Of a stretch of DNA of 64,000 nucleotides, positions 8,515 through 62,411 are shown in pieces. Numbering within the stretch: position 1 is the stretch's first letter; every line of letters begins with the position of its first letter. The stretch covers positions 186,001 to 250,000 of IMG/VR virus record IMGVR_UViG_3300033997_000243, one strand, 5' to 3'. The position numbers were made by a program, and so were the translations under genes. A model generated the notes under the pieces. It had not been told where the DNA came from. It searched no databases and saw only the letters and a program-made list of their open reading frames with translations. This DNA comes from a virus.

Positions 8515-8544
8515 ACATAAAAAAAGCTGACCGAAGCCAGCTTT
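8515..8544 (-). terminator. Rho-independent terminator after the MKVLV gene
   Basis: On the minus strand the arms AAAGCTGGC and GTCAGCTTT close a UUCG loop and are followed by a run of seven T. The single non-Watson-Crick pair becomes a G-U wobble only in minus-strand RNA, which fixes the direction. It ends the run of genes sharing the MKILV peptide. Confidence 0.85.
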
Positions 8545-8554
8545 AAATATTGGA

Positions 8555-8962
8555 TCATTGAAACTTAACGGTCTTACCCAAATCTTTTGTATTTACTGAA
8601 TACACGGAAGTGGATGGTGGACGTTTGAATTTAATTTCTTTTTGATCCACTGAAACAATTTGTACGGTAGCCACAGGTTTCCATGCTGGTTTTGCTTTGT
8701 CTGTGCCGATTTGTGCAAGTCTCTGCATTACATAAGTATTTCCAACTTTAGGTAACTTAGGTTTTGGCTTGCCTGTGACAGAAACTTTGTATTTATCGGC
8801 TTCTTTTATATCAGCCGCTAATTCTTTTTCAGCTTCTTTCAACTTGAGTTTGGCGTCAGATACTTTATCCTTAGACTTGGCAACTTTTGCCAAAAGTTGA
8901 GCATACTTTTTATCGTCCTTTAATTTGGATGGAACCGAACTTGTTGACACTAATACCTTCAT
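8555..8962 (-). CDS. MKILV-peptide family protein, coiled coil plus beta module
   Basis: A 135-residue basic protein. I take the ATG at 8962, preceded by AAGGAAATAAAA, which gives the N-terminus MKVLVSTSS, matching the start of six other genes in this cluster. Residues 15-55 look like a lysine-rich coiled coil. Residues ~65-135 form a beta-rich module (LPKVGNTYVMQ ... VATVQIVSV) that resembles the N-terminal module of the next upstream gene, where the coiled coil is instead at the C-terminus. The function is unknown. The basic charge and shared peptide suggest a DNA-associated internal head protein (inference). Confidence 0.8.
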   Translation of the reverse strand: MKVLVSTSSVPSKLKDDKKYAQLLAKVAKSKDKVSDAKLKLKEAEKELAADIKEADKYKVSVTGKPKPKLPKVGNTYVMQRLAQIGTDKAKPAWKPVATVQIVSVDQKEIKFKRPPSTSVYSVNTKDLGKTVKFQ

Positions 8963-8972
8963 TTTTATTTCC

Positions 8973-9470
8973 TTATTTCGATTTCTTAACATCTTTTAAA
9001 ATATAGGCAGCTAATTCAGCATACCCACCAGAATTTTTACCAGCACGATCTACTGGTTTGCGTAATTCAGTTAGTTTGTCAATTTGCTTTTCAACAGCAG
9101 ACAATTCTTTACGTAATTGTTTTTGTTTTTCCTTTAATGCTTTAAGTTTAGCATCATTCAGAATTTTGTCTGTGGTTTCAATATTCTTTTCCTCAGAACT
9201 TTGCTTTGAAGGTTTTACATAACTATCAAATATAAACTTAGATCCAATTTCAAGTATTGGTATAACTTTGGTCACACTGGAATTACCAAAAGCATTCTTT
9301 ACCGTAATTTTTCCAGCACGTATGCTTTTAACTCGCACAGCTTTTTCGTGTTTAATCCACTGTCCTACAGTGCGGCCTCTTACCGCAAACTCTTGCTTTT
9401 CTCTCAGCCAATAAACTTTTCCAACTTCAGGCATACTACGCTTAGCGCTTGTTGAGACTAGAATTTTCAT
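8973..9470 (-). CDS. MKILV-peptide family protein, beta module plus coiled coil
   Basis: A 165-residue basic protein starting MKILVSTSAKRSMPEVGKVY. Residues 12-80 form a beta module related to the C-terminal module of the neighbouring gene (P-x-V-G-x-x-Y, then V-R-V-K-S-I). Residues ~100-140 are a Lys/Glu coiled coil (KALKEKQKQLRKELSAVEKQ). AGGA is well placed before the ATG. No enzyme motif is visible. Confidence 0.82.
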   Translation of the reverse strand: MKILVSTSAKRSMPEVGKVYWLREKQEFAVRGRTVGQWIKHEKAVRVKSIRAGKITVKNAFGNSSVTKVIPILEIGSKFIFDSYVKPSKQSSEEKNIETTDKILNDAKLKALKEKQKQLRKELSAVEKQIDKLTELRKPVDRAGKNSGGYAELAAYILKDVKKSK

Positions 9471-10051
9471 TTTGATTCCTTGAGTTTTTTAAACATTGCC
9501 TGAATCTGTTTTTGCTTTGGAGCAAGTTCATCATGTAGACGATTAAACTCTTCTTCAGACTTTGCTTTAAGAATTTTATAATGATACTTGTGAATTTCGA
9601 TCAATCTCATTATAACTTCTTTTTCACGCTCTACAGCATTTGGGCCATTTAGAGCTTGTGTGATTTCTCTAAGTGCTTGCTGTGCGAGATTAATCCAACG
9701 TGTTTTATCAACGTCAGGCTCCCAAGTATAAACAGCTTCCATATATTCATCGGAAATTTTTTGACCAGCTGTTCTTGGTTTGTCAGTAGTGGCCTTTGGT
9801 TTTCTTTTATTTGGATCAAATGGAATAACAGAAGATTTACTTGAATAGCCACCTATCTGTTTGAATTCTTTTTCCTTTGATGCCCAAACTTTAATATCAG
9901 CTTCACTCATTCGTCTGGCTAAAAAATCGTCCATTGCACTATCTGCCAGCTTAGCCACTTGTCTATCTTCAGATAGTGTTTCGCGTTCAATAGCTTTATA
10001 CGCCAATTGTCTGATTGTAGGTCTAGCACTAACGCTGACTAAAATCTTCAT
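9467..10051 (-). CDS. MKILV-peptide family protein, unknown body
   Basis: A 194-residue basic, helical protein starting MKILVSVSARPTIRQLAYKA. A GTG one codon upstream could also start it, but the ATG at 10051 has AGGA at good distance and matches the shared N-terminal peptide. A low-complexity basic stretch (FDPNKRKPKATTDKPRT) lies near residues 75-95 and a helical C-terminus follows. The start nearly coincides with the upstream stop. No known domain is recognised beyond the N-terminal peptide. Confidence 0.82.
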   Translation of the reverse strand: MKILVSVSARPTIRQLAYKAIERETLSEDRQVAKLADSAMDDFLARRMSEADIKVWASKEKEFKQIGGYSSKSSVIPFDPNKRKPKATTDKPRTAGQKISDEYMEAVYTWEPDVDKTRWINLAQQALREITQALNGPNAVEREKEVIMRLIEIHKYHYKILKAKSEEEFNRLHDELAPKQKQIQAMFKKLKESK

Positions 10052-10650
10052 CACACATCCTTTAATAAGTCTGCCGAAATGAACTGTCCTTTTTCGAGAA
10101 CAGTTTTGGGAACTATTTTAATACTGGAGTCTAAATATTTAGCAATCTTTTTTGTTGCATATATTGCCTCAAGTTTTCCTTTTCCTTTCCCTATTATTTC
10201 TTTTTCCTTCCACACCCAAGGTTCATCACGCCAGTCGAAAATTTTTGACACACTAGGATCTTTGTTCTTGCTGAGTGAATTCAGATGATCGATCAGAGAA
10301 TCTATATCGAATGCTCCAGCTTCGACATCAACTTTATAAAGTACACCAAAATCTTGCATCGATTTTGATCCGTTTATCTTTATCTTGGCGAATTCCTCAG
10401 CAACCTCACGATCAATAGAAAAACTAGAATCACCAAATACTGCGGTTCTTTTTAAAGTTTCAAATGATTTGGCCGGAAGTTTCATTCCTCTATAAGCTGT
10501 TTGTTTCATTTTAGTTATAAACATTGGAAACGCGGCTTTCATTTTGGGAACTAGATCTTTGTCATTTGTATGAATCCAATCAGACAATAACTCAATCTTT
10601 TCTTTGTTTAAGGATAAGGACTCTGAACTTAAATTTACTAAAATCTTCAT
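10051..10650 (-). CDS. Probable mono-ADP-ribosyltransferase with MKILV peptide
   Basis: A 199-residue protein starting MKILVNLSSESLSLNKEK. The three signature blocks of R-S-E class ADP-ribosyltransferases appear in order: YRG with Arg54, the S-F-S block SSFSIDREVAEEFA (75-88), and the E-x-E block WKEKEII with Glu149 and Glu151. The Arg-to-ExE spacing (~95) is close to that in T4 ModA. Such enzymes transfer ADP-ribose from NAD to host proteins; in T4, Alt is packaged in the head and injected, while ModA is made early. The ATG at 10650 is preferred over an upstream in-frame ATG because it restores the shared N-terminal peptide and overlaps the upstream stop as ATGA. Confidence 0.7.
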   Translation of the reverse strand: MKILVNLSSESLSLNKEKIELLSDWIHTNDKDLVPKMKAAFPMFITKMKQTAYRGMKLPAKSFETLKRTAVFGDSSFSIDREVAEEFAKIKINGSKSMQDFGVLYKVDVEAGAFDIDSLIDHLNSLSKNKDPSVSKIFDWRDEPWVWKEKEIIGKGKGKLEAIYATKKIAKYLDSSIKIVPKTVLEKGQFISADLLKDV

Positions 10651-10925
10651 TTCATTTCCTCGAAAACGACATTCCAATCTTGTTCAAGTTGATGACGATC
10701 TGGATCAGTATCATAATAAGCGGCAATCGCATAAACTAATTCGCCAATATCACCGGTCAACGTAAATGTTTTATCGACAATTGCCATTGCTTTTGGCATT
10801 CTGGAAATTTTTACCTTTCTACCAACTGCTTTTATTTCGTCTGAAATTTGTTGAGTCGATGAATTCTTTTTAGCCTTAACATGAGCAACAAAAGTACGAG
10901 CAGACAAACTAACTAAGATTTTCAT
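10647..10925 (-). CDS. MKILV-peptide family protein, small
   Basis: A 92-residue protein starting MKILVSLSARTFVAHVKAKK. The start at 10925 has GGAG about 7 bases upstream and lies 17 bases inside the end of the upstream gene. The body is a small basic N-terminal half and an acidic C-terminal half. The function is unknown. Confidence 0.78.
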   Translation of the reverse strand: MKILVSLSARTFVAHVKAKKNSSTQQISDEIKAVGRKVKISRMPKAMAIVDKTFTLTGDIGELVYAIAAYYDTDPDRHQLEQDWNVVFEEMK

Positions 10926-11238
10926 TAGATTCTCCAGAATAGTTTCCAAGACTTGAGTAACTATAATAAAGTGTTACACAAGTTGGACTGCCTGTACTAA
11001 TGTGACCATCATTTAATTGTGCGCCAAACTTTTCATTAAATTGCCTTGGAATATCAACACACATTAGTTGAGGCACCAACTCTTTCTGAATTTCACGATC
11101 AGTAACCAGCAGTGAAAGATAAATGGCTCCGCGTAAATCTTGTTTTGGTGGGTCAATAGCTACTTTTAAAAATGAAGCACCTACTTTACTAAGTGCTGGA
11201 ATGCTTGCAAATGCCTCAACTAATTTTTCTGTACTCAT
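10909..11238 (-). CDS. Unknown small protein lacking the MKILV peptide
   Basis: A 109-residue protein starting MSTEKLVEAFASIPALSKVG. It is the only gene inside this cluster without the shared N-terminal peptide, and its 3' end overlaps the start of the next gene by 17 bases. The C-terminus is rich in Ser, Tyr and Asn. The family is unknown. Confidence 0.75.
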   Translation of the reverse strand: MSTEKLVEAFASIPALSKVGASFLKVAIDPPKQDLRGAIYLSLLVTDREIQKELVPQLMCVDIPRQFNEKFGAQLNDGHISTGSPTCVTLYYSYSSLGNYSGESNENLS

Positions 11239-11247
11239 ATCACACCT

Positions 11248-11736
11248 TTAATAACTATCAACAGCGGAATAGTCTATGTTATTCAAATCAAGTACGTGAG
11301 TAATGCCTTTAGCTACAGATAGATCGACTGGATCAATTGGATCATTAATTCGTATTGCTGCATTTATCAGATCATATGCAGACCTGAATTTATACTCATT
11401 GCTTACGGTTATAGTTAAATCTTGTAAAATTTCTTTAGCTTTATTAAATGCCGCAGCAGAAACTTCTTGACGGATTGTTTTAATTCTAGGAAACGACTCT
11501 CCTGTATGGAAATTTTTAATTGCTTCAGTTAATTCAGAGAATTGTTCAGGGAGAATTGTATGCAATCGTTTACCCAAAGAATTGCAAACTTTTTCAGTCA
11601 AATAGATAATGTTTCTTAACTCTGGAGTTGGCCCTTTGACTTTCTTAATAAGAGAACTTAATTGTTTATTGAATTTGGTAATCTGTTCACCTGTTGTTAA
11701 GTGCTTAGGTGCGCTTAAACTTACTAAGATCTTCAT
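11248..11736 (-). CDS. MKILV-peptide family protein, helical paralogue 1
   Basis: A 162-residue helical protein starting MKILVSLSAPKHLTTGEQIT. The C-terminal ~80 residues are clearly related to the next upstream gene: AFNKAKEI against AFKKLKEI, and DPVDLSVAKGITHVLDLNNI against DPVSDLSKYKGVTDALKMAG. AAGGAA is well placed before the ATG. It is a duplicated pair of unknown function. Confidence 0.82.
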   Translation of the reverse strand: MKILVSLSAPKHLTTGEQITKFNKQLSSLIKKVKGPTPELRNIIYLTEKVCNSLGKRLHTILPEQFSELTEAIKNFHTGESFPRIKTIRQEVSAAAFNKAKEILQDLTITVSNEYKFRSAYDLINAAIRINDPIDPVDLSVAKGITHVLDLNNIDYSAVDSY

Positions 11737-11759
11737 TTTTCTTTCCTTAACGAAAATAT

Positions 11760-11771
11760 GGGCCGAAGCCC
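11760..11771 (-). terminator. Weak UUCG hairpin between paralogues
   Basis: A 4-bp GGGC/GCCC stem with a UUCG loop (minus strand), followed by AUAUUUUCG. It lies between the two paralogous MKILV genes. The stem is short, so it probably attenuates or protects ends rather than stopping transcription. Confidence 0.4.
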
Positions 11772-11780
11772 TATTTTATA

Positions 11781-12254
11781 CTACACCTTTATTCCGGCCA
11801 TTTTCAGTGCATCAGTAACGCCTTTATATTTTGAAAGGTCACTTACTGGATCTACGTTATCTAAAAGCCTTTTACAGGCGATTGCTAAATTTTTAGCGGT
11901 TTCCCAAGTTTCAGCTTCTGATCCAGTAAGCTTTGTTTGTGCAACAATTTCTTTCAATTTTTTGAAAGCTGTTTGACCTAACTTCAAAAACTTCGGATCT
12001 ACATTGCTGTAATCAGGAGTTATATTTGAGGCACTTGTATCACGAACTTGATCTGTAATTTCCACCATCAAATCGTAAGATTTTTTCAGGGAAGGGTGGC
12101 CACGAAATCCATTACACAACATTGTGCAATTGTTTAATATTGCCCAATGATCAGAATCAAAATGCTTAAACTTTTTGAAATACTTTTTAACAGCGGCATC
12201 TGTCGTAGCCAAAGTAACTTCAGATTTTGCACTTAAGCTTACTAAAATTTTCAT
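11781..12254 (-). CDS. MKILV-peptide family protein, helical paralogue 2
   Basis: A 157-residue helical protein starting MKILVSLSAKSEVTLATTDA. It is a paralogue of the downstream gene through its C-terminal half. It is the first gene of the MKILV run after a UUCG terminator, with AAGGAA before the ATG. The function is unknown. Confidence 0.82.
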   Translation of the reverse strand: MKILVSLSAKSEVTLATTDAAVKKYFKKFKHFDSDHWAILNNCTMLCNGFRGHPSLKKSYDLMVEITDQVRDTSASNITPDYSNVDPKFLKLGQTAFKKLKEIVAQTKLTGSEAETWETAKNLAIACKRLLDNVDPVSDLSKYKGVTDALKMAGIKV

Positions 12255-12273: not shown

Positions 12274-12289
12274 AGGGGCCGAAGCCCCT
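12274..12289 (-). terminator. UUCG terminator after the 344-residue gene
   Basis: A 6-bp stem AGGGGC/GCCCCT closed by UUCG, followed on the minus strand by UAUUU. It lies immediately after the stop of the upstream gene, so it separates that gene from the MKILV run. Confidence 0.75.
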
Positions 12290-23201: not shown

Positions 23202-24725
23202 ATGGATGATATTACAATTCGTATTGAAGCATTTGAAAACAGATCTGATCTTGATGGAGCAAGAGCAAAAACTTCAGAATTCGGATCAGATGTTGCTTTC
23301 GTACAAGTAGAAGAACCAGATCCGCTTAATATAAAATTTGCGTACAATGCCCAATCAGGTGTTTTATCTTTAATCCGTGGGCCTGATGATATTATTCAGG
23401 CCACTGGTTTTCTTACGCAAAAAAGTTTGGGAACTGGAAGAAGAGGAAAGAAAGGAAAAAGAGGCAAAGACGGTCGTGATGGGAAAACTGGTTACGATGG
23501 TCGTGATGGAAAATCTGGATGTCCTGGAATTCAAGGTGTAAAAGGAAAGAAAGGACTTCCAGGTCGTGATGCTGATGATGGCCCAATTGGGCCAATAGGT
23601 AAAGCTGGTTGTGGTGGTGCTGAAGGTGAAGAAGGTGAAAGAGGAAATAAAGGAATAATCGGCAATGAAGGATCTCAAGGTTTAATGGGATCTAGTTGCA
23701 AGCAAGGGCCGGATGGCCCTGACGGTGAAAAACCTTTGGAAACAGTTTTATTTTCTGACGTTCCACCAGTAGATAATCTGCTTGCTTTTATTTGGGCAAA
23801 ACCTGTCAACAGAGATCAAGTAGATCCAACAGATCCATTGCCGCCAATAGATACTCCGTCACCTTTAAATGGAAGAGTAGATAGTTTATCAATGAATGTT
23901 CCTCCGGTCGGTGCTGGTTGGTATCAAGCAATTCTTTATTTTAAAGTGAATTCTTTAAGTGGTGGAGTTGGGCCTTTTAACTATAAATGGTCTGGTGATT
24001 TTTCGACAAACGCAAATCTTTCAGTAGTTGATACTGGAATGACATCTGCAAACTTGAATTTGAAGTGTAGAATTTATATTGCTGGAACAGAAACCAGAAA
24101 AATTACTGGTGGAATTCGTTGTACAGTAACAGACGTAGGTAACGGCAACAATCCACTACTGTTAGATGCCACTTACACATTCAACATTGTTGCGACGGCT
24201 TCTGGAGGCGGTGACAGTGGAGGCGGTGGTGGAGGCTGTATCGTTTTTGGTCAACGTGTTAATTTAGTAAATGGTGAGCAAATTCAAGTTCAATCTATTT
24301 TACACGGTGACAGTTTAATCGGCGCAAGCATAGAAAGTTTGCCGGACAGCTCTAATGGAAACTCTAAATTTTTAGATTGGTTCACTTCTGATCTTAAATC
24401 GAAAAATACAACTGTCACGGCTATGTCTGTTAAACACGGAACTTACCATAGTTACTACAAAATAAATAATGTTTTGAAAATAACTTTGGAAGAGAACATG
24501 CTTTGCTTGCGCGGAGGCTATTGGTCTTTTAGACGAGTTAAAGATCTTCGTGTTGGAGACTATTTATATCATCGAACAGAAGGTGCTAAAGAAATTCTCA
24601 GCATTGAACAAATAAGTGAACAAGTTAAGACAGTATCTTTAGATGTTGAGACATCAGACACTTACTATGTTGAAGATTATTTAGTTCACAATCTGGATGT
24701 CGGTGGGCCTGTGATTAAGAAATAG
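23202..24725 (+). CDS. Collagen-like fibre protein with C-terminal Hint-like domain
   Basis: A 507-residue protein with four parts. Residues 1-76 are a small beta domain shared with the other collagen-like genes. Residues ~77-178 are Gly-X-Y repeats, very basic at first (GRRGKKGKRGKDGRDG), with Y-position Pro in GCPG and GLPG. Residues ~180-340 are a beta domain ending in a glycine linker. From Cys346 (GGGGGGCIVFGQRV) to ~497 is a Hint/intein-like fold: Cys at the start, a VGDYL turn, and the terminal TVSLDVETSDTYYVEDYLVHN ending His496-Asn497. The block-B His expected in T-x-x-H is replaced (KITLEENMLCL). The residue after the Asn is Leu, not Cys/Ser/Thr, so splicing is unlikely. It is probably a virion fibre. 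Confidence 0.8.
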   Translation: MDDITIRIEAFENRSDLDGARAKTSEFGSDVAFVQVEEPDPLNIKFAYNAQSGVLSLIRGPDDIIQATGFLTQKSLGTGRRGKKGKRGKDGRDGKTGYDGRDGKSGCPGIQGVKGKKGLPGRDADDGPIGPIGKAGCGGAEGEEGERGNKGIIGNEGSQGLMGSSCKQGPDGPDGEKPLETVLFSDVPPVDNLLAFIWAKPVNRDQVDPTDPLPPIDTPSPLNGRVDSLSMNVPPVGAGWYQAILYFKVNSLSGGVGPFNYKWSGDFSTNANLSVVDTGMTSANLNLKCRIYIAGTETRKITGGIRCTVTDVGNGNNPLLLDATYTFNIVATASGGGDSGGGGGGCIVFGQRVNLVNGEQIQVQSILHGDSLIGASIESLPDSSNGNSKFLDWFTSDLKSKNTTVTAMSVKHGTYHSYYKINNVLKITLEENMLCLRGGYWSFRRVKDLRVGDYLYHRTEGAKEILSIEQISEQVKTVSLDVETSDTYYVEDYLVHNLDVGGPVIKK

Positions 24726-30311: not shown

Positions 30312-33300
30312 ATGGCAGGAACTCCATTCACAACTATTTACGAAAATTTAGGATCTAATGCGACAACTGTTCCTGGAATTTCGTGGAAGTTTGACCATGA
30401 ATACATTATCTACACGATTGAAAGAAACGCAGATGATGAAGTAGGTGTTGTTTATATAAATACACATGCGGCTTCTCTTCGAGCTATTGATCGTGGATTT
30501 TTAGCTGTAACGGTTGACGCATGGATTGTTCTTGATCGTCAAACAATGCAGATTAAAAGCGAATCACGTAAAGGTGATGCTTGTCCAATTTTAAAAGTTT
30601 TAGAGCGCCCGATTACAGTTGGCGTATCGGACTTTACTTCAGAAAATTGGGAAGTTTATTATTCAGGCCCTGGAGTTGTACAATTAAATATTGACTGGCC
30701 TGATGATTATGAATACGTTATCTTTGTTCACGCAACAGAGCCTCCTGGTCGCTATCCAGATCTTAAGTGGTCTATATGCGCTCACTTCTTTTGTCCGGCA
30801 GCAATGAATGCGAGTGATATAAATGGCGGTGGTTATTTAAAACCGATTGAAGGTGCGTCAGGTGTAATGATGTATCGTGGTCGGTTTTCTAGTCCAACTG
30901 GCAGACATATTCGTAGATTCGACAAAGGTGATGGTTTAATAGCGTATATACTTCGCAGAAAATTTAGAACTGATACCAAAGCAACAACTGAATTTAATAG
31001 TTGGAAGCAACACACGTTTGCACTTCCTAATGGCATACAAGCTGGTGGAAATTGGCGTGATGCTAAACCTTATGCTTGGCCTGATGATACTGAAATAATG
31101 GTAGTGTCACAAGATCCTAAAGGTAGCACAGAAATGGCTACTTCTTATTATTTCACAGATTCAAACATTCAGAATACAACTCAAATAAATTGGCGTGAAC
31201 GCGGTTTATTGTATGATGCGGGTTATGATCATTATATAGAGTTGTTGAAACCTATTTGGCAAAACCGTGGAACCAAACATATCCGTTCAAGTGATGGAAG
31301 AATTTTTGCAGCGTGGGAAAAACTACCCACGTTAGATGTTCCACCGCCAGAACCTCCACCGCCAGTTGATCCTGTAATTGATTGTCGCGCTTGCGTACCA
31401 GCTGGATCTTTGTGGGAGCAAACTGCAAGTATTGAAGTTCGTTTTGTTAAGCCTGATGATTGGCAATTACGCAATTATCGCTATGATTGGCACGGTGACA
31501 TCGGCAACGGTTCTGTGGAATTAATTGGAACCGAAGCTAATGGAAGAATTGCAAAAATTCGTTTTGTAAAAATGTTAGAACCTACCGATGATGGAATAAT
31601 GTTTCCTATCAATGTGGCGGTTACAGTTTATGATATGGATTATGCTTCGGCTGGAGTACAAGATAGTGATACAGCAATCATCGAATTTGAATTACCTTGT
31701 ATTGTAGTGGCGAATCAGCCGGATATAAGTATAGAGGATATTACTGTACTTGAGCAAGACATCAATCATGTCGTACAGGTTACAGTTTCTTTGTCTGAAC
31801 CAGCAACTGCGGAAGCACTAACAGTAGATTGGCAAACTCGTGATGGTACTGCGAAAAGCGATCTGAGTGTTAAAACACTTGCTAGGGATGATTTAGGTAA
31901 TCCATTTATAACCGTTATAGAAAGTTTAGATAGTAAAGTCAGGACTTATATAGATGGTTGTTTTCCAAAATGGTATGCTGCAAGTTTTTACGACAGATTG
32001 AATACACCTAAATTTCAAACAACATTTTTATTCACGCAAAACATAATTAACTGGTTATCCAGAAATAAAGTTGGAGGTCAAGTTTTATTATTAGGTGATA
32101 AGACGAACGATCCTTACAATGTTAAACTATCTAACGCAAATGATTTTTTCCCTGTATTCGATGCCGCAGCAACAGCCACAGGAAGAACTTTAGTTGTTGA
32201 ATATGTCTATGATATAGTTCCATCTAAAGCATATTTCGATTCCTTCGATTGCATTATTTATATAGGCAGTCACTATACAGGCGATCAAGTTAATTCACCT
32301 GAATTTATTACTGCACTTGTAGAAAGTCATTTAGGTGGAATCGGAGCAGCATTTATATCTGATCATGGTGTTGATGATATTAATGGGGCTGGTTTTTTCA
32401 AAGGCGTTAATGAAGTTTTGATCAATGCTTTTGGTATAGGACTAAAGGGCAATATAGATCGCGGATCTATGGTACTTACTGTGGAAAACGCAAAAGCTAC
32501 TTTAGGTGATCATCCATTGTGGGCCGGATTAAGCGGCCAAATAGATGCAGGATCTTCAGAAGCGTATGTTGATGCAATAGATAGTGAACCGGATTATATA
32601 AGTGGTCGAGGAACTTTAGTCTTTGCTGTCGGTGAGCAACACAAAATAATCGAGGTTACAATTGTTGGTGATACTACAATTGAGAATGACGAATATTTTG
32701 AAATAATGATCTCGAATAATAGTCGAGGTCAGATAGTAAAAAATGTTGGTCGTGTTACACTTCAAGATGATGATGCTCAACCTTGCGGTGTCACAACAGG
32801 ATCTGGTGGTACTGGTGTCACAGAAACAGTTCATAATATGGGATCTGAATCAGGCCAAGTAACAGTTGGTTTTGATATGTTCGGTGTTCCAGATATGATG
32901 GAAATTTTTTACGATGGAGTACGCGTAGCCGCAACAAGCAGAGATTTAAGTAATCCATACCCAAGTGGAACTGGACGCTATTACAATCTTCCAAATGGAA
33001 ATAAAGATCTTCCAACTGAAGTAAGTGGTGCTGGTACTCTATCATTTTATTATGAAGGGCCACCAAACAAACCTTCAACAATCATGATTCGTATGACTGG
33101 GCCAGACGGAACTGCATGGAATTACAATTTAGATTGTCCGATTCCTGTTGAGGAGCCGCCACCGCCAGCAGTAACAATTGCTGGAATAAGATTTAGAAAT
33201 TTAGATCCAGCACCTGGAGCAGGAGCAATTGCAATAGGTTATATTGATTTTATAAAATCGGATAGCACTATTTACGATTTTGGTAATGTACTGCAAGATA

Positions 33301-34226
33301 ACTATGTAAATTGTACTTTTGAGCATGGATATACAGAAGGACAACCTGTGCAATATCAAAATAGTTATAAGCCGCGTCAAGCAATTAATGGCTATCAAGA
33401 AGGATCTCAATGCAGTCACCGCGATTACTATGGCCCATTCACAAATGATGCGTACTTATTAATTCGTTTATCTCAAATGACGGATATAATAGGTTTCAAC
33501 ATGATGGATTGGCATTATTGTAATGACAATGGCGCTCCAGTGTTTCGCGCTCCAGCACTTCCATACAGCATAGATCTTTTAGATCAAAATGATAATGTGA
33601 TTTGCACACAAACAGTAACAAGTTATGTTAGTCCGGCGGCAGATACAGTTGGTTACGTTCCAATACAATTCCCTTGCGATCCTGTAATTGGTGGAACAAG
33701 TGTAGGTGGCGGAAGTGCAGATTGTTTTGCATACGGAACTTTGATAACTATGTCTGACGGTTTTGAAAAAGAAATCGAAGATATTGTTATTGGAGAAACA
33801 GTTAAAACTTTTTCCATAGAAGGATTAACTGATGCAAATGCTGAAAATCCTGTGGACTATTTAACTTGGTCAACTTACGATCTGCAAATAAAAGAATCTA
33901 CTGCCGCAGTAACATCAGTTTCTTATCACGAAACTAATCTACATCATAAGATTTGGATAGAAGGCAAAATAGATCCTATAAGGGTCACTGCGGAACATCC
34001 ATTCTTAGTTAAGTTTTCTGATAGAAATGATTGGGTATTTGATTACGCTCGTTATCTTAAAGCAGGTGATACTGTTTTAGATTCAAGTGGTCGGCAAATA
34101 AAAGTTCTATCGAATCAATTGATATACGGAAATATTAAAACTGTCCGTCTGGATGTTGAAACGCTAGATACTTATTTTGCTGGTGGAATTCTTGTACACA
34201 ACAAAGATACTACAATACAACAGTAG
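30312..34226 (+). CDS. Giant adhesin-like protein with interrupted Calx-beta and C-terminal Hint domain
   Basis: A 1304-residue protein. A Pro-rich linker lies near residues 345-358 (PPPEPPPPVDP). A Calx-beta domain starts at ~472, is broken after TRDGTAKSD by an alpha/beta insert (~518-757: GGQVLLLGDKTNDP, DCIIYIGSHYTGD, LGDHPLWAGLSG) and resumes at GTLVFAVGEQHKIIEV, ending VTLQDDD near 820. A beta-sandwich repeat ends AWNYNLDCP. The C-terminal ~165 residues form an intact Hint domain: Cys1138 (ADCFAYGTLITMSDG), block B RVTAEHPFLV with the TxxH histidine, LKAGDTVLD, and RLDVETLDTYFAGGILVHN ending His1296-Asn1297, followed by Lys. Only 7 residues follow, so it is an autoprocessing rather than a splicing domain (inference). 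Confidence 0.8.
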   Translation: MAGTPFTTIYENLGSNATTVPGISWKFDHEYIIYTIERNADDEVGVVYINTHAASLRAIDRGFLAVTVDAWIVLDRQTMQIKSESRKGDACPILKVLERPITVGVSDFTSENWEVYYSGPGVVQLNIDWPDDYEYVIFVHATEPPGRYPDLKWSICAHFFCPAAMNASDINGGGYLKPIEGASGVMMYRGRFSSPTGRHIRRFDKGDGLIAYILRRKFRTDTKATTEFNSWKQHTFALPNGIQAGGNWRDAKPYAWPDDTEIMVVSQDPKGSTEMATSYYFTDSNIQNTTQINWRERGLLYDAGYDHYIELLKPIWQNRGTKHIRSSDGRIFAAWEKLPTLDVPPPEPPPPVDPVIDCRACVPAGSLWEQTASIEVRFVKPDDWQLRNYRYDWHGDIGNGSVELIGTEANGRIAKIRFVKMLEPTDDGIMFPINVAVTVYDMDYASAGVQDSDTAIIEFELPCIVVANQPDISIEDITVLEQDINHVVQVTVSLSEPATAEALTVDWQTRDGTAKSDLSVKTLARDDLGNPFITVIESLDSKVRTYIDGCFPKWYAASFYDRLNTPKFQTTFLFTQNIINWLSRNKVGGQVLLLGDKTNDPYNVKLSNANDFFPVFDAAATATGRTLVVEYVYDIVPSKAYFDSFDCIIYIGSHYTGDQVNSPEFITALVESHLGGIGAAFISDHGVDDINGAGFFKGVNEVLINAFGIGLKGNIDRGSMVLTVENAKATLGDHPLWAGLSGQIDAGSSEAYVDAIDSEPDYISGRGTLVFAVGEQHKIIEVTIVGDTTIENDEYFEIMISNNSRGQIVKNVGRVTLQDDDAQPCGVTTGSGGTGVTETVHNMGSESGQVTVGFDMFGVPDMMEIFYDGVRVAATSRDLSNPYPSGTGRYYNLPNGNKDLPTEVSGAGTLSFYYEGPPNKPSTIMIRMTGPDGTAWNYNLDCPIPVEEPPPPAVTIAGIRFRNLDPAPGAGAIAIGYIDFIKSDSTIYDFGNVLQDNYVNCTFEHGYTEGQPVQYQNSYKPRQAINGYQEGSQCSHRDYYGPFTNDAYLLIRLSQMTDIIGFNMMDWHYCNDNGAPVFRAPALPYSIDLLDQNDNVICTQTVTSYVSPAADTVGYVPIQFPCDPVIGGTSVGGGSADCFAYGTLITMSDGFEKEIEDIVIGETVKTFSIEGLTDANAENPVDYLTWSTYDLQIKESTAAVTSVSYHETNLHHKIWIEGKIDPIRVTAEHPFLVKFSDRNDWVFDYARYLKAGDTVLDSSGRQIKVLSNQLIYGNIKTVRLDVETLDTYFAGGILVHNKDTTIQQ

Positions 34227-55406: not shown

Positions 55407-56279
55407 TCAGTCATTCAATATTTGTTTATTGAATATAAATAAGTATTCATTGTCTGATGGAACAGGGCTACCGAACTCACACTGAACAACCTTTGGAAAT
55501 GCAATTCCTTGTAAGCAAAAACCAATTGAGTCCAAGTCCAAAGCTTCCGTCAGCTCTACTATATTATTCAAATCTTTTGAGTTTGGTGCAATTCGAGTTA
55601 CCCAAAATTTAGTCTGTCTCTTATCAAGTTTAATGCCTTCAAAGATGCCAGTGATTCTTTCTATAGTGGTATAAGAATCCAAGAAAAACAGTTTTGGTTG
55701 TTTTTCGCGCCACTCTTTATATACCCTTATATCCAGCAATGTAGGATCTGCTGGAATAACTGCTGAAATAGATTTAACGCTGATTGCGAAATATTCCGAA
55801 GATGCAGTTCCCATGTGAAAAGCAAAGGAAATAGGTGCGTTAAAGAAATCACACAATTTCTTAGTAACGTGCTTTATCTTTGGTCGATTTAAAATTTCTT
55901 GATTTTGTGAATAAGAAATATGTTTGGCCAAATGTGCAGGTTTTGTATTATGCTTAGCACGAATAGCCTCAATATTATTTTCAGCGCGATTTATTTCACT
56001 TTTAAAAATTGATTCAAGTGAAACGCTATGCAAATCACACACTGATAATAATGTAATCAGTGTACCTGCTGCTTCCTGGTCTACTTCACCTTTTGGTCGG
56101 CTGTAAACGTGATCTAAAATACTATCCATTTGATCCCGCGATAATCCTATAGCCTGACACAATTCTACACATTCTTCTGCAAAACGAAAACTGCGTTCAC
56201 TCTTGTCATTTGTGTGTTCAACACCAAAACAATTAGTAAGCCAGTTTCTAACCCTGACTTTCATCTGCTGTAAATTCAT
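55407..56279 (-). CDS. MazG-like nucleotide pyrophosphohydrolase fused to an unknown domain
   Basis: A 290-residue protein. Residues ~20-110 show the all-alpha NTP-PPase pattern: EECVELCQAIG (ExxE), GEVDQEAAGTLITLL (ExxD) and NNIEAIRAKHNTKPAH, the typical end of MazG-like domains. These hydrolyse NTPs/dNTPs to monophosphates or clear alarmone-type nucleotides. Residues ~115-290 form an additional domain I do not recognise. I start at 56279 because AGGAG is 7 bases upstream; an ATG 21 bases earlier lacks a site. It overlaps the upstream P-loop gene by 32 bases. Confidence 0.75.
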   Translation of the reverse strand: MNLQQMKVRVRNWLTNCFGVEHTNDKSERSFRFAEECVELCQAIGLSRDQMDSILDHVYSRPKGEVDQEAAGTLITLLSVCDLHSVSLESIFKSEINRAENNIEAIRAKHNTKPAHLAKHISYSQNQEILNRPKIKHVTKKLCDFFNAPISFAFHMGTASSEYFAISVKSISAVIPADPTLLDIRVYKEWREKQPKLFFLDSYTTIERITGIFEGIKLDKRQTKFWVTRIAPNSKDLNNIVELTEALDLDSIGFCLQGIAFPKVVQCEFGSPVPSDNEYLFIFNKQILND

Positions 56280-56769
56280 CAACTTTCTCCTGTGTGCCAA
56301 TCACATCCGACATAAATTGTTTTGCTTTTAACACAACATGAGTGCAGCCTTGTTGCTCAACACAACTGGTTAAAAAGTTTGCCCAGTTCTTGTTCATCAT
56401 GGTTAAGAATTCTTTTGGAGATCCGCGCTTAGCGTAACGCTGCATATACTCCACTTTTAAATTCTTTTCAGGATAAACCAGAGTGAAGTCAATTCCAGCA
56501 TCTACCAAAGCTTGACGCACAGCATCATGCGAACTAACAAGCAAATAATCACATTGGTAACGAGCTTCTTCAATGTGTTTAATGTAATTTGCCGGAAAAT
56601 CATCTTTAGGGAATTTTGAACTGTCGCTATCCATAACAGTAAAGCCTAATTCCTGTTGACGATTGAAAAAGTGAGTTTTGCCAATCCCAGGAAATCCACA
56701 AATAATTTGAGCGCTTTTTTGCGGAACTGACTTAGGTTTGTTTTTGTTTAATGATACCAAAATTTTCAT
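56248..56769 (-). CDS. P-loop kinase-like protein with MKILV peptide
   Basis: A 173-residue protein. Walker A is GFPGIGKTHF (25-34), and DSDSSKF (47-53) follows as in phage nucleotide or polynucleotide kinases. The N-terminus MKILVSLNKNKP matches the shared peptide of the 8555-12254 cluster although this gene lies 44 kb away. In the other members the peptide is attached to unrelated bodies. The substrate is not visible from the sequence. Confidence 0.72.
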   Translation of the reverse strand: MKILVSLNKNKPKSVPQKSAQIICGFPGIGKTHFFNRQQELGFTVMDSDSSKFPKDDFPANYIKHIEEARYQCDYLLVSSHDAVRQALVDAGIDFTLVYPEKNLKVEYMQRYAKRGSPKEFLTMMNKNWANFLTSCVEQQGCTHVVLKAKQFMSDVIGTQEKVDEFTADESQG

Positions 56770-60753: not shown

Positions 60754-61428
60754 TTAGTTTTTGTTTTTGACTTTGCTGTAATACTTAGGAACTGAAGTCA
60801 AACTCAGTCTTTTGAAAAAATTATGATCTCGAACAACAGATGCAGGAAGGAAAACTGTTAAGTTGTGGCGAGTACCATCAAAAGACCGATTTAAAGCATC
60901 TTCTATTTCTTCCCAAGGTGTACCATAAGAAGAATCGTTACCGAAAAAATAAAGTCCGATGTTGGTCGGTTTATCAAAATCTTCCAACAATTGATTAAAG
61001 CCAGATTCTACAGAATCCAGATCAACGTGGTGAACTTTATTATCTGGAACTTTGTGTCCAAAAGTATTTTGCACGAATATTGTAGTAATATCGAGTTTGC
61101 GTCCGGCATTTCTCTGGTCAACTATGTTAGGTAACTCTGAAGCCGGATAGCAAGAATATTTAAAATGCTTTCCTAGTGCAGTACGTCCGGTGAATTTGCA
61201 AGCAGCTTCTGCTTTAATAAGTTCAGGTATAAACTTATGCAAAGAACCCACAAGACCTTTAGGAACATGGGACGTATTTGAGGCAACAACCAAATCAGAA
61301 AAATTATTTCTTACGCTGTGTACTATAGCGTCCAAGAAATGATCGGTTATCATATAGTTAACTGAATTTGTTTTGCAGCCCAAGCCACCTTTAACCAGCT
61401 GTTGAAGTCTTTGTTCTAATGTTGTCAT
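60754..61428 (-). CDS. Unknown protein
   Basis: A 224-residue mixed alpha/beta protein. Strand-like blocks (DITTIFVQNTFG, NIGLYFFGND, HNLTVFLPASVV) suggest a Rossmann-type fold, but no catalytic motif is recognised. It follows the exonuclease gene, suggesting a place in DNA metabolism by context only. Confidence 0.72.
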   Translation of the reverse strand: MTTLEQRLQQLVKGGLGCKTNSVNYMITDHFLDAIVHSVRNNFSDLVVASNTSHVPKGLVGSLHKFIPELIKAEAACKFTGRTALGKHFKYSCYPASELPNIVDQRNAGRKLDITTIFVQNTFGHKVPDNKVHHVDLDSVESGFNQLLEDFDKPTNIGLYFFGNDSSYGTPWEEIEDALNRSFDGTRHNLTVFLPASVVRDHNFFKRLSLTSVPKYYSKVKNKN

Positions 61429-61442
61429 AATATTTCCCCTCG

Positions 61443-62411
61443 CTAACAGTTGAATGTTTCTTTGAACTCAAACTGTTTTTCTACAGAACGAACTTTTCGT
61501 TCGACTTTTTTAGACCAAGGTTCCAACAGATAGGTCGATAATCGTGTATCTACCTTTAAGTCTTTCTTGATCTCAACTAAATCTCTGCACATAAAACAAA
61601 GATCTTGATAAAATGGATCTTTGAGTTTTTTTCCCAAAGCGCCTTTATGTTCTGCTTGGAATATAGAATCAAGATCTTCATACTGCATCAACAATTCGAT
61701 AGCTGTTTTATCTCCGACGCCTGGAATGCCTGGAATGTTATCGCTCTGATCTCCTGTCAGTGCCAAAAGATCCACAAACATTGGAGGAATAACGCCATAC
61801 TTTTCAAGACAACTTTGATATGTAATATCTTGTTCTTCACTGTTGTCTTGTTTTGGTAAACGTAACCTTGTATCAGGTTTTAATAACTGAGCGAAATCAC
61901 CGTCACGACTCCAAATATATTTACGACATTTTAGTTGGAAACACAAGCTTCCTATAATATCGTCGGCCTCACCGTGAACAGAAGTTATAGGGTGAATTCC
62001 ACGCGCAGTCAAAATATCAATAATCATTTTTAATTGTGGGCGAAGTGCAATACTTTTAGCATCGTCACCGTCAGAAAAACGATTACCTTTATAACCACTT
62101 AAATATTTTTCTGGAAATTTAGCAGCATCTTCTCCGCGTAAACGCTTTTCCATGAAATCGCGCATTATTTTCTTGCGCTTGTCCGAACCTTTTTTGTGGT
62201 CAAATACAACAGCTAAAATAACTTGACCTCGTGACGCTAATCTTCTGCGAATAAGAGCATTTAGCATAACGCAAAAAGTTTTAGCTGCTCCAGTAGGTGT
62301 TCCGTCTTTTAACGTCATTCCCTTATTTTTTAAACTGGAGTAATATGCTCGATTGAGCCAATTGTGGCCGTCAATAATATCTATAACCGGATTAGGTTTG
62401 ATTTTACTCAT
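61443..62411 (-). CDS. 5'-3' exonuclease / flap endonuclease
   Basis: A 322-residue member of the phage 5' nuclease family (T4 rnh, T5 D15, PolA N-domain). The metal-site motifs are DIIDGHNWLNRAYYS (11-25), VVFDHKKG with the nearby KRKKIMRDF arch, HGEADDIIGSL, WSRDGDFAQLL, and the helix-hairpin-helix LTGDQSDNIPGIPGVGDKTA. It removes RNA primers and 5' flaps during replication. The start overlaps the upstream gene by 4 bases, and a putative promoter element lies ~73 bases upstream, inside that gene. Confidence 0.92.
   Translation of the reverse strand: MSKIKPNPVIDIIDGHNWLNRAYYSSLKNKGMTLKDGTPTGAAKTFCVMLNALIRRRLASRGQVILAVVFDHKKGSDKRKKIMRDFMEKRLRGEDAAKFPEKYLSGYKGNRFSDGDDAKSIALRPQLKMIIDILTARGIHPITSVHGEADDIIGSLCFQLKCRKYIWSRDGDFAQLLKPDTRLRLPKQDNSEEQDITYQSCLEKYGVIPPMFVDLLALTGDQSDNIPGIPGVGDKTAIELLMQYEDLDSIFQAEHKGALGKKLKDPFYQDLCFMCRDLVEIKKDLKVDTRLSTYLLEPWSKKVERKVRSVEKQFEFKETFNC

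Follow-up and report, generated by a model that had tools for sequence, protein, structure and literature searches.

Jumbo phages bring many proteins into the host, and their choice of cargo is largely open. In phage T4, a capsid-targeting sequence (CTS) loads internal proteins into the prohead core; its targeting residues come first and its processing residues last, and its first 10 residues are enough to bring a foreign protein into the head (PMC9026906). In the jumbo phage SPN3US, gp53 and gp54 have an identical 15-residue N-terminus (PMC5694885, PMC9026906). Our search of the phiKZ and SPN3US literature found no description of a comparable tag on many unrelated proteins, nor did we find, in the papers searched, a general short tag described for any phage that is not T4-like.

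Here we describe a short N-terminal peptide, or tag, carried by many proteins of a jumbo phage represented by IMG/VR record IMGVR_UViG_3300033997_000243 (319,518 bases). The window is the 64,000-base stretch of this record that was analysed (record bases 186001-250000); the remainder of the record was also read, and positions refer to the window unless given as record positions. Megablast against phage records returned no near relative. The tail sheath, DNA polymerase and capsid proteins put the phage among the NCTB/Lu11/HRDY3/AD1/Y3/Yoloswag/PaBG jumbo myophages, which have been named the Lupandier group (PMC7412058). The papers that we searched, a set outside which most subscription papers and preprints fall, make no mention of these peptides and describe no such tag for the clade.

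Seven clustered genes with a common N-terminus

The first-pass annotation had described seven minus-strand open reading frames sharing the start MK[IV]LV[SN]xS[SA]. All seven exist, with ATG codons at 12254, 11736, 10925, 10650, 10051, 9470 and 8962; the start of the third tagged gene was set at ATG 10925, not at TTG 10949. Short overlaps couple several of the genes, for example at 9467-9470 and 10647-10650. The cluster comprises the following features:

12274..12289, minus strand: terminator-like hairpin AGGGGCTTCGGCCCCT, upstream of tagged gene 1
11781..12254, minus strand: tagged gene 1, 157 aa, MKILVSLSA; body without assigned function, paralogue of 11248-11736
About 11760: hairpin GGGCTTCGGCCC, resembling the previous hairpin, preceding tagged gene 2
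11248..11736, minus strand: tagged gene 2, 162 aa, MKILVSLSA; paralogue of gene 1, missing from the sister strain
10909..11238, minus strand: untagged gene, 109 aa, within the cluster; its 3′ end overlaps the start of tagged gene 3
10647..10925, minus strand: tagged gene 3, 92 aa, MKILVSLSA
10051..10650, minus strand: tagged gene 4, 199 aa, MKILVNLSS; body earlier called an ADP-ribosyltransferase, unconfirmed
9467..10051, minus strand: tagged gene 5, 194 aa, MKILVSVSA; body without assigned function
8973..9470, minus strand: tagged gene 6, 165 aa, MKILVSTSA; C-terminal half coiled-coil-like, weak matches only
8555..8962, minus strand: tagged gene 7, 135 aa, MKVLVSTSS
8523..8544, minus strand: terminator-like hairpin and T run at the cluster end

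That the bodies behind this peptide differ holds for most of the cluster, but 11781-12254 is a paralogue of 11248-11736, with 29% identity across 161 columns. BLAST among the other bodies found no mutual similarity, and searches of Pfam, PHROGs and NCBIfam assigned none of the seven a convincing function. An SH3-like domain common to 8555-8962 and 8973-9470 seemed visible by eye and was not significant (p=0.27). For the ADP-ribosyltransferase proposed for 10051-10650, we see only an R/S/ExE-like motif by eye; neither Pfam, PHROGs, NCBIfam, PDB sequences nor phage tblastn supports the assignment; the AlphaFold model of this body has a pLDDT of 32, too low for fold assignment.

The peptide, not the DNA, is conserved

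A motif-free search for the commonest four-position N-terminal pattern recovers the tag as K2-I3-V5-S8 (K-I-x-V-x-x-S) in 11 genes, against three genes for the best of any four-position pattern in 60 column shuffles. With a tag regex, 23 of 389 true N-termini of this genome match, as do 18 of 1590 internal-methionine controls (p=2e-7; our p-values are descriptive, because the regex was broadened to admit alanine once the unsupervised step had been done and the relatives had been seen, and because orthologues recur among related phages, which are non-independent samples). A chance origin of the shared N-terminus is excluded. Identical residues of the tag share their codon at a rate of 0.40; simulation from the codon usage of the genome gives 0.336 +/- 0.053 (p=0.13). 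The tag codons are as mixed as codon usage predicts, and it is therefore the peptide that is conserved, not the DNA. The earlier remark that the same residues use different codons is borne out, as is its corollary that selection acts on the peptide, with no DNA-level conservation among the tag codons.

Tagged genes elsewhere in the genome and near the head genes

The peptide had been noted in the seven-gene cluster only, to which it is not confined: six further clear short-form copies and a six-gene long-form cluster occur in the genome, which has about 19-20 clear carriers. The short forms lie at record positions 65125, 79947, 95787, 102847, 242769 (window 56769) and 318727. The long form, two residues longer, begins six genes at record 63049-68286 (MKIKVFVSQSS, MKIQVMLSESA, MKIKVFISSSN, MKVNILISESA, MKIRVFTSTSA and MKIRVFISESS). 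The features that bear on this wider distribution are:

Record 61325-62119: head maturation (prohead) protease (phrog_18299, E=5.9e-88)
Record 75253-76347: major capsid gene
Window 56248..56769, minus strand: tagged P-loop nucleotide kinase-like protein, 173 aa, MKILVSLNK; the kinase domain (phrog_4182) begins after the tag

The long-form cluster sits between the head maturation protease and major capsid genes, an interval in which 7 of 14 genes match the uniform regex (Fisher p=1.4e-6). NCTB has four clear tags in the same interval (MKVFLSESK, MLISISLGK, MKIISISAR and MKIVSISAQ) and a weaker one, MLITLSRVA. This packing of tagged genes between protease and capsid, in both phages, agrees with head targeting of the T4 kind. 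The seven-gene cluster (8555-12254) has no head genes beside it, and some tagged genes lie dispersed. Homologues of the prohead protease are found in NCTB, Yoloswag and PaBG, and it also aligns with AD1.

Elsewhere in the genome, two adjacent open reading frames at record 106241-108164 (L016:6241-8164) resemble GroEL and GroES chaperonins by eye only, the second being MKIKPLQDRLVIRVDN. In the window, 30312-34226 encodes a protein of 1304 aa that has a Calx-beta domain and ends in a PT-HINT domain, and whose neighbours in NCTB carry the annotation of intein-domain tail proteins, and 23202-24725 encodes a 507-aa protein with collagen triple-helix repeats that adjoins large tail-type proteins.

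Spread across related jumbo phages

We scanned eight relatives and two outgroups (Aura and GR11A), with genes from a simple custom gene caller. A search of the whole genome and of related phages had been proposed with the first observation, and the tag proved to be the top unsupervised pattern in six of the eight related jumbo phages: AD1 (5 genes vs a shuffle maximum of 3), Yoloswag (5 vs 3), Lu11 (6 vs 3), HRDY3 (4 vs 3), Y3 (4 vs 3) and Yen9-02 (6 vs 3). In NCTB the tag is present at lower strength, PaBG shows single loose cases only, and in the outgroups the unsupervised scan did not return it as a leading pattern. Tested with the regex against internal-methionine controls, every clade member except PaBG is significant. 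The relatives' form is M[KE]IxVSLSA, which in AD1 and Yoloswag reads M-E-I-x-V-S-L-S-A, while an alanine form replaces Ser by Ala in Lu11 (MKIQLAVAA) and HRDY3 (MELQLALAA). Orthologous families retain the tag through this Ser/Ala exchange (Yoloswag MEIVVSLSALPP, Lu11 MRIQLAVAAVP and HRDY3 MELQLALAAV). The peptide is a genuine, modular N-terminal signal that is found clade-wide and is selected as a peptide.

Modularity is seen most directly where the body has a recognisable domain. In the nucleotide kinase of this phage, the MKILVSLNK tag and a short linker precede the kinase; the PaBG kinase has a tag-like start, MKINVPLSSAEA, followed by a long acidic linker and then the kinase, whereas the homologue g133 of phiR1-37 has no tag and is called 'phage structural protein' in its record. 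In that PaBG kinase (PaBG_00151, L176:269-1147), the very acidic linker between the tag-like N-terminus and the P-loop domain exceeds 100 residues. The same kind of tag precedes a NUDIX domain in AD1, DUF5754 is tagged both here and in its NCTB homologue, and in this phage and its relatives many families of unassigned function carry the tag.

Tag-like starts were also observed in two further families. The family of record 80283 (L015:283-963) and its relatives begin MLILLSESARKK, MLLFISASARK and MLISLSAAIN; BLAST connects it with a PaBG protein in which a KMPT-N (PF20294) domain leads a SprT-like peptidase, and the family may be another cargo class. A eukaryotic-type topoisomerase I (Pfam; PaBG gp84, L088:16210-17898) has the tag-resembling N-terminus MHTSLSAVQ, and its relatives begin MLITLSRVA (NCTB 182625) and MMEMSIAAAA (HRDY3 106693); the NCTB gene (182625) sits within the head module.

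Turnover of tagged genes

A scan of IMG/VR with the tag pattern returned one strain that is nearly identical, plus two contigs from an unrelated siphovirus, and locus searches with cluster or flank proteins led to the same strain contig, which is ~99% identical. The siphovirus matches fall in the portal-gene region and start no listed open reading frame, and are therefore read as chance. In the sister strain, tagged gene 2 (11248-11736) is cleanly missing through a 541-bp indel with the 9-bp microhomology TAAAGGTGT, and the upstream gene keeps a stop codon. The sole difference in the gene at 8555-8962 is S9A, which lies within the tag and is towards the consensus. Cargo genes turn over while the tag persists.

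Possible roles of the peptide

A conserved strand start followed by a small-x-small end is a T4 CTS-like pattern, and for this reason a cargo signal is proposed. For a capsid-targeting (cargo-loading) role of the peptide in the Lupandier jumbo myophage clade (PaBG/Lu11/NCTB/AD1/Y3/Yoloswag), we put the probability at roughly 0.7. The original suggestion of a head-packaging tag like that of T4 survives in the modular, clade-wide peptide and in the head-gene context, but not in the T4 protease motif, since L/I-x-E is absent. Recognition, encapsidation, cleavage and injection of tagged proteins are our best inference as to how such a signal would act. In this reading, M-[K/E]-I-x-[V/I/L] would make up a short strand at the N-terminus, and behind it comes a small-x-small-small end, which is S-L-S-A or, in GC-rich relatives, A-V-A-A. 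As the prohead assembles, one of its components (core, scaffold or shell) would recognise the tag; effector proteins that are otherwise unrelated would in this way come to lie inside the head and enter the next host along with the DNA, and the small-x-small end may double as the site at which the prohead protease trims the tag. More tentatively, the clade may possess an autonomous strand tag, unlike the T4 CTS in sequence and cleavage chemistry, which loads dozens of interchangeable effectors into the head and whose sequence shifts from SLSA to AVAA in step with its receptor and with a prohead protease specific for small-x-small.

In PaBG, the N-termini of gp202 (MGSLFTLNSLSAAID) and gp83 (MLIKINLLEAVAAKA) match the tag loosely, and both proteins were detected in the virion by MS (PMC7412058). 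These loose forms on two MS-identified virion proteins are suggestive only; most PaBG virion proteins, capsid and tail proteins included, are without the tag. Virion proteomics of a phage with the strict tag was not found in the literature searched.

Sorting to another site in the infected cell, such as a replication compartment, a membrane or an anti-defence complex, is an unlikely role. An activity during infection is conceivable for the tagged enzymes (kinase, NUDIX), and many tagged genes are located away from the head module, but the strong enrichment between the protease and capsid genes points to the head, and signal-peptide character is lacking. A Sec or lipoprotein signal peptide, which would have a hydrophobic core of about 10 or more residues behind a basic N-terminus, was rejected, as there is no long hydrophobic core (longest small/hydrophobic run, 4-9 residues); the best 15-residue mean hydropathy of tagged N-termini is -0.6 to 1.2, with 3-7 charges in residues 10-25.

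The small-x-small end may, judging from its sequence, be a protease site. By position counts the tag ends in S-L-S-A or A-x-A-A, with Glu only as a variable middle residue in some long forms, and no conserved L/I-x-E or S/A-x-E cleavage site follows it. The capsid protein of this phage has a tag-like FLSLSAE in its N-terminal part, near where a ~20% cut would fall; this is not retained in Y3 or Yen9-02. Among the other head proteins, the motif was not enriched as a recurring protease site, and the tag did not covary consistently with the processing region of the capsid. It is very unlikely that the peptide marks only the end of a propeptide cut by the prohead protease, carrying no address, with the proteins reaching the head by another route. 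The small-x-small pattern, preceded by a hydrophobic residue and variable in the middle, does look like a protease specificity, longer N-termini finish in the same LSESAA-type motif and the phage encodes a protease; however, the M-[KE]-I-x-V start, unneeded for a cleavage site alone, is as conserved as the SxSA end, and a common site in capsid proteins is inconsistent. A remnant of gene duplication, with bodies diverged from one ancestor and the N-terminus kept by chance or for translation initiation, is most improbable: the genes are tandem and two cluster members are clear paralogues, but the bodies are unrelated domains, one with an untagged relative elsewhere, the randomised codons argue against conserved initiation DNA and the tag persists with S/A exchange across phages.

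If the capsid-targeting reading is true, proteins with such an N-terminus could be predicted as injected, many unassigned genes would be nominated as early takeover or anti-defence factors, and the peptide would provide another means, independent of the first, of bringing proteins into phage heads.

Comparison with known systems

Like the CTS of T4 IPI-IPIII and Alt (PMC9026906), the tag is a short peptide at the extreme N-terminus, common to proteins with unrelated bodies. As in T4, the phage encodes a prohead protease and its cargo genes turn over fast. Unlike the T4 CTS, the consensus here is a strand plus SxSA or AxAA from which the L/I-x-E cleavage motif is absent; the clade is a non-T4 one, a single genome has about 19 clear carriers, and encapsidation and cleavage are here putative. 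With L/I-x-E missing, we do not claim membership of the T4 CTS family; the claim is that the peptide would work like a CTS. Encapsulin cargo-loading peptides are also short and hydrophobic-plus-small, and the tag could likewise dock inside an HK97-fold shell, although those peptides are usually C-terminal and act in bacterial compartments. The likeness to phiKZ and SPN3US is that of jumbo phages with N-terminal propeptides on head proteins (inner-body and ejection proteins); unlike the tag described here, SPN3US propeptides are mostly >100 residues long and are cut at A-x-E (S/A-x-E in phiKZ) (PMC5694885, PMC9026906).
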